This document shows positions 54,947 to 58,304 of a stretch of DNA of 64,000 nt, piece by piece. Origin of the DNA: an uncultured Burkholderiales bacterium (GTDB taxonomy: Bacteria > Pseudomonadota > Gammaproteobacteria > Burkholderiales > Burkholderiaceae_C); contig CAIMTJ010000042.1 of the NCBI GenBank assembly GCA_903844385.1, forward strand, positions 39,095-103,094, in the 5' to 3' direction. Numbering within the stretch: the first letter of the stretch is position 1; the number at the start of each line of letters is the position of its first letter. The notes below the pieces were generated by a model. It did no database searches. It was not told the DNA's origin and saw only the letters and a program-made list of their open reading frames with translations. The position numbers and the translations under genes are program-made.

Positions 54947-55468
54947 ATGTTATCTAAAAAATCAGTCAACGCCATCAATGCTTTGGTTTGGTTGGGGCTA
55001 TTGCAAAGCTCGGGGCCAGTCAGCCTTCAAAAAATCAGCCAGGCCATGAACGTGTCCATCTCTTGTTTGGAGCAGATTTTTGCCACTTTGAAATCTTGCC
55101 AATTGATCGAATCCTTCAAGGGTCCTGGCGGTGGTTATGTCACGCGAGGAACCCTACAAAGCATCTCCTTGTGGTCAATTGCCCAACCGTTTGAACTTGA
55201 AGCACGATTGGGAGACAAAACCACTCCAAGCAGCACCCTTCATCCCGAAAAGCTGTGTCCTGAGTCGATCTTTATGCAGTTTCAACACTCATCCGAGTTG
55301 CTCTTGAATGATGTCTCGCTTCAAGCTGCCGTTGACATGAGCCAAACCAGTGCTGACAACGCAGACCTCCAACCCCAGACCCAATCCAACCGATTCAAAC
55401 TCAAACCCTTGACTCACAACAGCTTTCCACGCGGACCCAACTCCGTGTTCAATTGGGCTCAGGTCTAG
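54947..55468 (+). CDS. Rrf2-family transcriptional regulator
   Basis: 173 residues. The winged-helix N-terminus is typical: MLSKKSVNAINALVWLGLL, VSLQKISQAMNVSISCLEQIFATLKSCQLIESFKGPGGGYVTRG. The GPGGGY wing is the Rrf2 hallmark. The three-cysteine Fe-S cluster of IscR is not present; one Cys lies in the usual region (PEKLCPESIF), so any sensing is not by the IscR arrangement. The Gln/Asn-rich C-terminal tail ends NSVFNWAQV. It converges with the thiol dioxygenase-rhodanese fusion gene and is divergent from the MerR gene. Rrf2 members such as CymR control sulfur metabolism, so regulation of the neighbour is plausible (inference). Confidence 0.88.
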   Translation: MLSKKSVNAINALVWLGLLQSSGPVSLQKISQAMNVSISCLEQIFATLKSCQLIESFKGPGGGYVTRGTLQSISLWSIAQPFELEARLGDKTTPSSTLHPEKLCPESIFMQFQHSSELLLNDVSLQAAVDMSQTSADNADLQPQTQSNRFKLKPLTHNSFPRGPNSVFNWAQV

Positions 55469-55493: not shown

Positions 55494-58304
55494 TTAAACC
55501 ACCCGAAAGTGATGGGTTGCATCTTTTCGCAATTGCTCAACCAAGCCGTATTCCCAGTCTAGGTAAGCTTGCATGGCTTGAGCTGAGTTTTGCACCCCCT
55601 CATAGGGTCGTTGATAGCGATCGATTCGCGCACTGGCAAGATATGACTCTCCTTGCTGCACAGAAAATCCCTTCTCGCTCCAAGCCTTGGTACCCCCCGA
55701 CAGGACAAAAATCTCCACATTGGGTTTGACGCAGGACCTGAGCTCAGCCCAAGCAAAGCGCGCGCTCAAGCCATCTTCGCTGGTGAGAATATATCGATTG
55801 GCTTTGTGAACGCGACCAAAGTCCTCCTTCATCTTGGAGCGAAGCAACCACCAAGCGCCAGGAATGTGCTGCTTGACGTAGTGTGCGCTTGAAGAGAGAT
55901 CCACCACCAAGCTCAAATTATTTCTCTGCGCCAACCACTCTTTGAGGAGCTCTGGCGTGACTTCAGGACAGGCACCACTCCATTCTGGGGGATCCAAATA
56001 TCGCGTATCCTTGCGCGTGAGATCTCCTGGGCGGACGTCCTTGATGACATAAACCTCCCAAGCCATTTGCGCCAACCAAGACGCACTCATCATCGCCCTC
56101 ACACCTTCAGTGTCATAGAGCACCACGCGCGCGCCCCTCACCGGTACAAAATGATCGGTCTCCTGCACCAATTGACCACCCGCGGCGTGAATCGCTTTGG
56201 GGAGGTGGCCTTCGAGAAACTCTTGAGCGCTGCGCACATCAAACAAGTAAGTGGCACGAGTGGTTTCTGTGCTCATCGCTTGAAACTCTTGCATGTCAAT
56301 GCGTTTGACACCACAGCGAATGGCCAAAGCCAAGGCACTCATTTTCGCTTTGCTCAAATCAACCTCGTTGACCGCTCCATAGGTTTGATCGCGACCGGAC
56401 TCCAAGGATTGGCCTGCCAAGACCCAGCCAATCGTGCCATTTTCGAGCGCACACACTGGGTTGGGAATACCAGCGTTGAGCAAGGACTGTGCACCAATAA
56501 TGCTGCGGGTGCGTCCTGCACAATTGACCACGATGCGCGTGGTCACGCGAGGGGCCAGTGTTCGAGCGCGAAGGACCAATTCAGCACCCGGCACACTGGT
56601 CGCTTTGGGGATGGACATGGTTTGGTATTCGTCAAAACGCCTGGCGTCGAGAACCACCAAGTCGGCATTTTGATCCAACCAAAATTTCAACTGGGTGGCA
56701 CTCACGTGTGGGGTGTGTTTCTGCGCCGCCACCAACTCACCAAAAGCTTTGCTCGGCACATTCACGTCAATGAACATCTCTTGGGCGGCTTGTTGCCACG
56801 CTCTCAAGCCGTCTTGCAAAAGAAAGACGGCTCTGTAGCCCATTTTCAGCAAAATCTCTCTCGCAAGAAGAGTGATCTCAATTTCATCGTGGTACAACAC
56901 AATGGGTGACGTTAAGCATGGCAACCGACGGTAGGCGTCCATTTCAACACGCGAGAGCGGCATTTGGGCCGCAAACAATGGATGTCCTCTGGCAAAGGTG
57001 TCCTCTTCTCTCAAATCGATAAGCGCCACTTCCTGGCGAGCCAGCAAACTCTCTCTCACCCACTGCACAGATACGCTCGGGACATCACCAGCAGATGATG
57101 CGACGCCAGTGTGCTGCTCAGCAAAAGGGCGAGATGCAAGAGCGGCTTTTGGCGCATCCACAGCACGTGTCTGCGTTGGCTCAGGCATGCGCCGTGAACT
57201 TGTCGCACCCATGGTGAGCGTAGGCTCAATGGAAGCGGGCAGTGCCTGAGGCTTGGCATTGGGTTGGATGGCCAATTCATGCGGCAATGAAGTTGACGGC
57301 TTTGAAGCACCCCATGAGAGCGGGGTTTGCACAGCAGGTTCTGCACTGGCGAGCTGCACCTCATCGCCCAGAGCCATCGCCTTGGGATTGGGCGAAAAAA
57401 TGGGCACGGGACTGGGTGCAGACATGGGCGCCGAAACCTTGGCTTGTTCAGGCTGGCCTTTGCCCGTTGCAAGTGCTTTGGGGATCGATGGATTGAACTG
57501 ATCGATGGCCTTCTTGGACATCCAAGACTTGACCGCACTGGGCGCAGGCGCTGCCGTTTGGGCGGACTCCAGGGTCGAAGCCAAGTCGTGTGACTTGTCA
57601 CGGTTTGACACAGAAGATTGCGACCCATTGCCCGATGTCGTCACCGGTGTAGTCTCAACGCTCGTTTGATTCGATTGCAGCGCGGTGTCAGCAGCACGGT
57701 CTGGAGTTGTCCTCACCAAATTCGCTTGACTGGCCACCACACTTGGGACAGGACTGTAGCCAGAAATAAATTCTTTCGTTTGACCATCGAGCTGATAGAC
57801 ATGCCTGGAGATTCGTCCAATATTGCCACCGTAGACGTGAATGCTGATGGAGCTTTGATCCGAAAAAGCATTCCACACTTTGTGCACGTCACCCAATCGT
57901 GGAGAGACCGCCTCCACATCCCCCGGCAAGAGGTGCAACTGCAGTCCTGCCGGAACCCACCGACCGTCGGACATGCGGGAATAAGGCTGACATTTTTCCG
58001 AGCCCATCAACATACCGATGAGGCCCCAAACCGTGTGATCATGAATAGGGGTGAACTGCCCAGGCCCCCAAACAAAACTCACCACACTGAATCGCTCCTT
58101 GGGGTCAAGGTACAGCAAGTACTGTTGGTAGTGCGAAGCATGGGGCTCTCGCAAACCACCCATAAGCCAATCATCTTGCTTGACCAAGTCATGGAGAAGT
58201 TCTCGCCCTTGCGTGAGCAAGGCGGCTTCCTTGGGTTGAGATTCAATGAGGCGTGTAAAACGGGCTACAAAATTCTCGAGTCTCTGAGTATTGATCTCTG
58301 GCAT
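55494..58304 (-). CDS. Thiol dioxygenase fused to four rhodanese-like domains
   Basis: 936 residues. Residues 1-185 are a cysteine/3-mercaptopropionate dioxygenase-type cupin with iron ligands His88, His90 (TPIHDHTVWG) and His141 (GDVHKVWNAF). Residues about 190-405 are a Pro/Ala/Ser-rich linker. Four rhodanese-like domains follow at about 412-510, 533-640, 670-760 and 782-885. Only the second keeps an active-site cysteine, Cys595 in VVNCAGRTRS; the others read VLYHDE, VLYDTEG and ILTSEDG there. In related bacteria the dioxygenase and a multi-rhodanese protein are separate neighbouring genes. The likely role is thiol oxidation with sulfur transfer in the cytoplasm; no signal peptide is present. 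Confidence 0.88.
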   Translation of the reverse strand: MPEINTQRLENFVARFTRLIESQPKEAALLTQGRELLHDLVKQDDWLMGGLREPHASHYQQYLLYLDPKERFSVVSFVWGPGQFTPIHDHTVWGLIGMLMGSEKCQPYSRMSDGRWVPAGLQLHLLPGDVEAVSPRLGDVHKVWNAFSDQSSISIHVYGGNIGRISRHVYQLDGQTKEFISGYSPVPSVVASQANLVRTTPDRAADTALQSNQTSVETTPVTTSGNGSQSSVSNRDKSHDLASTLESAQTAAPAPSAVKSWMSKKAIDQFNPSIPKALATGKGQPEQAKVSAPMSAPSPVPIFSPNPKAMALGDEVQLASAEPAVQTPLSWGASKPSTSLPHELAIQPNAKPQALPASIEPTLTMGATSSRRMPEPTQTRAVDAPKAALASRPFAEQHTGVASSAGDVPSVSVQWVRESLLARQEVALIDLREEDTFARGHPLFAAQMPLSRVEMDAYRRLPCLTSPIVLYHDEIEITLLAREILLKMGYRAVFLLQDGLRAWQQAAQEMFIDVNVPSKAFGELVAAQKHTPHVSATQLKFWLDQNADLVVLDARRFDEYQTMSIPKATSVPGAELVLRARTLAPRVTTRIVVNCAGRTRSIIGAQSLLNAGIPNPVCALENGTIGWVLAGQSLESGRDQTYGAVNEVDLSKAKMSALALAIRCGVKRIDMQEFQAMSTETTRATYLFDVRSAQEFLEGHLPKAIHAAGGQLVQETDHFVPVRGARVVLYDTEGVRAMMSASWLAQMAWEVYVIKDVRPGDLTRKDTRYLDPPEWSGACPEVTPELLKEWLAQRNNLSLVVDLSSSAHYVKQHIPGAWWLLRSKMKEDFGRVHKANRYILTSEDGLSARFAWAELRSCVKPNVEIFVLSGGTKAWSEKGFSVQQGESYLASARIDRYQRPYEGVQNSAQAMQAYLDWEYGLVEQLRKDATHHFRVV

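Follow-up and report, generated by a model that had tools for sequence, protein, structure and literature searches.

A thiol dioxygenase fused to a quadruple rhodanese in a genus of Burkholderiales: architecture, origin and candidate role in organosulfur metabolism

Domain architecture and surroundings of the fused gene

The minus strand of the window (the whole stretch of 64,000 nucleotides analysed here, from an uncultured Burkholderiales bacterium) carries at positions 55494..58304 a single coding sequence of 936 codons, starting with ATG and free of internal stops, in which a 3-mercaptopropionate dioxygenase (3MDO) domain, a linker and four rhodanese domains follow one another. Residues 6-185 of the product matched the 3MDO of P. 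aeruginosa (3uss/4tlf, E 6e-65), residues 415-935 matched the P. aeruginosa quadruple rhodanese 1yt8 (E 1.6e-170), and Pfam recognized Rhodanese in four stretches (E 6.9e-42). An earlier AF2 model, for which 19 close rows had been used, was of low quality (mean pLDDT 51.7) and was left uninterpreted; in the model interpreted here, which was built from an alignment of 73 rows picked for added diversity, both ends of the protein lie mostly above 90 pLDDT and residues 190-393 mostly below 50. Foldseek with this model retrieved 1yt8 with TM 0.97 and 3uss with TM 0.91 (target-normalised). Homology, Pfam, AF2 and Foldseek thus agree with the original prediction of an iron cupin, a disordered linker and four rhodanese domains in one 936-residue chain. 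A separate internal start for the rhodanese part was looked for among candidate start codons judged by eye, none of which was preceded by a convincing ribosome-binding site.

The dioxygenase domain (residues 1-186, positions 57747..58304, minus strand) was assigned by residue comparison with Av3MDO, whose numbering and residue roles were taken from PMC8050391. The Fe ligands His88, His90 and His141 align with H90, H92 and H142 of Av3MDO and are kept in all the fused rows having a residue at the site (41/41, 41/41 and 42/42, respectively), as well as in every split row with a residue there. The SHY motif is present as S154/H156/Y158 (S155/H157/Y159 in Av3MDO), and R167 and Q61 correspond to the carboxylate-binding Arg R168 and to Q63, i.e., to the residue set of Gln-type 3MDO. 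The profile search proposed with the original prediction for Cupin/CDO_I and Rhodanese returned the four Rhodanese stretches, and CDO_I remained below threshold (17.1 bits against the gathering cut-off of 23), which points to 3MDO rather than to a cysteine dioxygenase. Assignment to the Arg-type cysteine dioxygenases was considered and rejected on the basis of this score and of the pocket, where Gln61 stands instead of Arg; as far as the pocket residues (Q61, R167) can tell, cysteine is the less likely substrate, and the N-terminal domain presumably acts on 3-mercaptopropionate. The known Gln-type 3MDO enzymes (P. aeruginosa PA2602, 3uss/4tlf; A. vinelandii, 6xb9), about 55% identical to the window domain, have the three Fe-binding His, the SHY motif and the equivalents of Arg168 and Gln63 in common with it, but are free-standing, whereas the window 3MDO is fused via the disordered linker. 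A changed SHY motif (S154 to C, H156 to E) with the iron ligands kept was observed in L016, L017, L019, L061 and, in part, L066; these loci form one subclade of the fusion, in which substrate or activity may have shifted.

The linker (residues ~187-408, positions 57081..57746, minus strand) is bounded by homology, has pLDDT <50 for most of residues 190-393 and consists to 65% of A/P/S/T/Q/E/G (measured over residues 185-409). Its disorder had been anticipated correctly, although its length by homology is about 222 residues and not 215. Across the fused proteins this length varies from 11 to 256 aa. Raw counts of codon differences (not rates) from a single comparison, that of the window with its closest relative, amounted to 22 synonymous and 61 nonsynonymous in the linker, 20 and 1 in the dioxygenase, and 76 and 23 in the rhodanese part, indicating selection on both ends of the protein and little on the linker sequence. 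Such a variable and nearly neutral linker fits a loose tether better than a structured or rigid channel. With shuffled bases, the linker frame would be free of stops with a probability of 0.0002, as calculated for this genome alone.

The quadruple-rhodanese module (residues 409-936) is homologous to P. aeruginosa 1YT8 along its whole length. Domain 1 (residues ~409-511, positions 56772..57080, minus strand) is Cys-less, with His472-Asp473 at the loop; position 472 is Asp in 118/135 relatives and His in the window. Domain 2 (residues ~530-640, 56385..56717, minus strand) bears the catalytic loop C595-A-G-R-T-R600, the codon of Cys595 occupying positions 56520..56522 (minus strand). Domain 3 (residues ~664-760, 56025..56315, minus strand) is Cys-less with the invariant Asp731, and domain 4 (residues ~780-885, 55650..55967, minus strand) has Ser842. 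C595 was found in 135/135 relatives and R600, the end of the CAGRTR loop, in 134/135; the essentially invariant Cys and catalytic loop point to catalysis. The Arg at the loop end is needed for thiosulfate cleavage in RDL2 (CAKGVR) and DUF442 (CRTGTR) (PMC8533005), and Arg600 of the window is its counterpart. At position 842 a Cys is present in 34/43 fused and 57/61 split 3MDO-type sequences (91/104, near-duplicate loci of the same species being included in these counts) and in 0/16 of the MSDO-type sequences counted. Hence the notion that only one domain keeps an active Cys is valid for the window's own subclade (C595) and not as a family trait, and of the three modules thought to be Cys-less, domains 1 and 3 are so, whereas domain 4 has Cys at the catalytic position in most of the 3MDO-type relatives (91/104).

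The nearest described protein, 1YT8 (homologue PA2603; tst of P. protegens), likewise has four rhodanese domains with CAGRTR in the domain-2 loop (52% identity, TM 0.97), but it is a separate protein with Cys in the domain-4 loop, where the fused window protein has Ser. Two further fold-search matches, EanB and YnjE, have several rhodanese domains with one active Cys. Both show 14-16% identity, poor overall superposition and no dioxygenase, and EanB works in ergothioneine synthesis. A shorter form with frames of 429-465 aa, covering approximately the first three rhodanese domains, was observed in L182-L188 (family f238 of the same phylum).

The convergent neighbour of the fusion, an Rrf2-family regulator (positions 54947..55468, plus strand), is kept in the window's subclade only and is a candidate regulator of the fusion. 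For the upstream genes, PHROGs gave nothing useful. SoxY is encoded in 37/41 genus genomes, with three copies in the window genome; in 11 genomes its gene shares the strand of the fusion and lies ~2.2 kb upstream of it. These genomes make up only part of the genus, and several of them have another gene between. In part of the genus the soxZ, soxA and soxY genes precede the fusion on its own strand (L061:5850-7017, L055:5308-5817).

Fused and split forms and their phylogeny

The in-frame fusion of dioxygenase and rhodanese was detected in 31/37 genus genomes (36 relatives and the window genome), a number that includes G021 and G035, where the fusion was deduced from fragments on two contigs, and G024, whose frame is broken close to the C-terminus. 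In G001 and G025 pieces of the fusion lie at contig ends only, and in G002, G007, G012 and G027, genomes 57-85% complete, zero matches covered the fusion. Two intact separate genes were seen in 0/37 genus genomes. An assembly error or frameshift hiding a stop between two genes, which the original prediction had named as its refutation, has therefore a practically negligible probability: the frame is open across the genus, including independent public assemblies and with differing linkers, and the six remaining genomes are incomplete, none of them having two intact separate genes. Public assemblies with the fusion belong to Comamonadaceae and Burkholderiales MAGs, one of them labelled Limnohabitans. 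No 3MDO fusion was found outside the window's genus among 300 genomes of the order, 370 of the class and 299 of the phylum.

Split genes for 3MDO and the rhodanese, adjacent and on one strand, are present in Pseudomonas, Azotobacter, Acidovorax, Variovorax, Comamonas, Cupriavidus, Pandoraea and Rhodoferax. The survey of fused versus split forms thus gave fusions throughout the window's genus, where the locus is intact, and separate, often adjacent genes in relatives, and the expectation that Burkholderiales relatives have separate neighbouring genes was borne out, e.g., by Acidovorax, Variovorax and Cupriavidus. The dioxygenase stop of the split pairs lies inside or beside the rhodanese open frame, so that a small change could fuse the pair. 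The 3mdo and tst genes of P. protegens were judged to be a transcription unit by the authors of PMC12947264. Numerous 3MDO genes lack a rhodanese companion, and there are rhodaneses located away from 3MDO. Within the order, 3MDO was present in 15/16 genomes with a 3MDO-type rhodanese versus ~30/284 others (Fisher p 6e-13), the p-value being only indicative, as the genomes were tallied by hand with two candidates scored per genome and kinship ignored. In L083 and further loci of Pseudomonas, the neighbours of the split genes include a LysR gene in divergent orientation, a luciferase-like monooxygenase gene and an acyl-CoA dehydrogenase-like gene, surroundings which suggest a sulfur-scavenging region.

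A domain of the mercaptosuccinate dioxygenase (MSDO) type shares one reading frame with a quadruple rhodanese of this kind in L036, L037 and L038, belonging to one genus of family f11, and in L145 and L146 from two other families; the dioxygenase domain of L038 matches 8vni (mercaptosuccinate dioxygenase) with E 7.5e-37. Locus L133, suggested as a further fusion by the length of its open frame, was rejected since its dioxygenase lies in a different frame. MSDO (8vni) with its neighbouring rhodanese is a system akin to that of the window, in that a related cupin thiol dioxygenase is paired with the same quadruple-rhodanese family, but it represents another dioxygenase subfamily with another substrate and arose by separate fusion events, and its rhodanese partner falls outside the 3MDO-associated clade and lacks the domain-4 Cys in the sequences counted.

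The rhodanese tree was built with 90 rows, near-duplicates and the long-branch row L133 being left out. On it the 3MDO fusions form one clade (support 100/99), i.e., they have a single origin, and the MSDO fusions need two changes, which gives three fusion changes in all as a minimum count. Two origins of the MSDO fusions are favoured, and their single origin is neither accepted nor clearly rejected (p-AU 0.06 with all of them held in one clade). The type of partner tracks the rhodanese phylogeny, 3MDO- and MSDO-associated rhodaneses being separate on the tree, with the exception of L145 and L146, which branch beside the 3MDO-associated clade.

Sulfur transfer and alternative explanations

At the level of sequence comparison, the architecture, the intact active-site residues, the single origin and the recurrent fusion with a second thiol dioxygenase are demonstrated features of the system. 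Because the fusion recurs with a second dioxygenase, functional coupling of the thiol dioxygenase and the quadruple rhodanese is very likely, as judged from these sequences. The stronger idea of the original prediction, that a fusion implies direct hand-over of a sulfur species, stands as regards the coupling, whereas the direct hand-over is conjectural, the linker fitting a loose tether better than a channel.

We tentatively propose, at a little under an even chance, that the protein is a bifunctional organosulfur enzyme, whose Cys595 persulfide donates sulfane sulfur to an oxidised product arising from the dioxygenase pathway. It would have originated by fusion of a 3mdo-tst gene pair. The N-terminal cupin would use O2 to convert 3-mercaptopropionate, or a closely similar thiol, into 3-sulfinopropionate. 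In the C-terminal module domain 2 alone would be catalytic, the other rhodanese domains serving as a scaffold, and thiosulfate or a persulfide would supply the sulfane sulfur that turns Cys595 into Cys-SSH. The acceptor of this sulfur might be the sulfinate itself, which would become a thiosulfonate in the manner of the reaction of sulfurtransferases with hypotaurine, or, alternatively, sulfite released later, which would become thiosulfate usable by the Sox system of the same genomes. The flexible linker would keep the two halves equal in amount and close together without a channel. Which molecule accepts the sulfur, and in which direction the sulfur flows, we infer from several facts: both partner types (3MDO and MSDO) produce a sulfinate, sulfurtransferases use sulfite as well as the sulfinate hypotaurine as sulfur acceptors (PMC7545470), and Sox genes are present, which together favour transfer from Cys595 to the oxidised product. 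Sulfite could arise by either of two described routes, sulfinosuccinate decaying to succinate and sulfite (PMC5373536) and 3-sulfinopropionate yielding sulfite via CoA activation and AcdA (PMC6370202). Against the proposal speak the fact that this known route of 3-sulfinopropionate proceeds by CoA activation with other enzymes and no rhodanese, and the limitation of the Sox adjacency to part of the genus. In P. protegens deletion of 3mdo raised 3-mercaptopropionate and deletion of tst did not change it significantly (PMC12947264), so the rhodanese is not needed for the first oxidation.

The last result also bears on the opposite order of events, in which the rhodanese adds sulfane sulfur to an organic thiol or removes it, and the dioxygenase receives the persulfide or the cleaned thiol. 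Precedent for such upstream coupling comes from the persulfide dioxygenase-rhodanese fusions (PRF, Blh), in which a single chain likewise combines a rhodanese with a non-haem iron dioxygenase; rhodanese fusions of the ETHE1-type persulfide dioxygenases act in this way, and the loop-end Arg suits uptake from thiosulfate. The dioxygenase of PRF and Blh has, however, a metallo-beta-lactamase fold and acts on a persulfide, and their rhodanese part is smaller, whereas the window dioxygenase is by homology and Foldseek a cupin, with 3MDO residues, and thus falls outside the PRF group. PMC5823870 describes Blh as a bifunctional sulfur transferase/dioxygenase. Since, moreover, 3-mercaptopropionate was not significantly changed upon tst loss and the same rhodanese family serves mercaptosuccinate dioxygenase with its different thiol, we regard an upstream action of the rhodanese as unlikely.

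Somewhat unlikely, too, is a fusion of operon genes without mechanistic coupling, in which two co-expressed genes became one when a stop was lost, with equal dosage as the result, the rhodanese having a separate sulfane-sulfur job. The adjacency of the split pairs on one strand with the dioxygenase stop in or beside the rhodanese frame agrees with such an event, and a variable and nearly neutral linker is compatible with a fusion bringing no hand-over whatsoever; but the fusion has been kept across the whole genus with purifying selection at both ends, and at least three changes on the tree join this rhodanese family to a thiol dioxygenase. A role of the rhodanese module chiefly as scaffold or sensor, with domains binding anions or partner proteins and regulating the dioxygenase, appears very improbable: domains 1 and 3 are Cys-less throughout, with a conserved Asp, and the domain-4 Cys is also lost in the window's subclade, yet the conservation of C595 (135/135) and R600 (134/135) points to catalysis.

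While the separate parts and their operon are already known, no description of a fusion of thiol dioxygenase and quadruple rhodanese was found in the open-access literature, subscription journals being mostly outside the scope of the search, and the joining of MSDO to this rhodanese module, seen in five other genomes, is new. The crystal structure of 1YT8 was released in 2005; the open-access literature yielded neither a reported activity for quadruple rhodaneses of its family nor a role assigned to 1YT8 itself, and the thiosulfate sulfurtransferase activity of the module is putative, as it comes from a database name. The fusions to 3MDO and MSDO are strong evidence that 1YT8 belongs to thiol dioxygenation, and the fused form offers a single protein for direct testing of the sulfurtransferase role. 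In its broadest version, which we consider decidedly doubtful, the proposal would extend to several kinds of thiol dioxygenase, each coupled to a dedicated quadruple rhodanese that converts the sulfinate directly into a thiosulfonate, with repeated fusion marking the coupling. If true, this direct conversion of sulfinate to thiosulfonate would be an unrecognised step of organosulfur breakdown.
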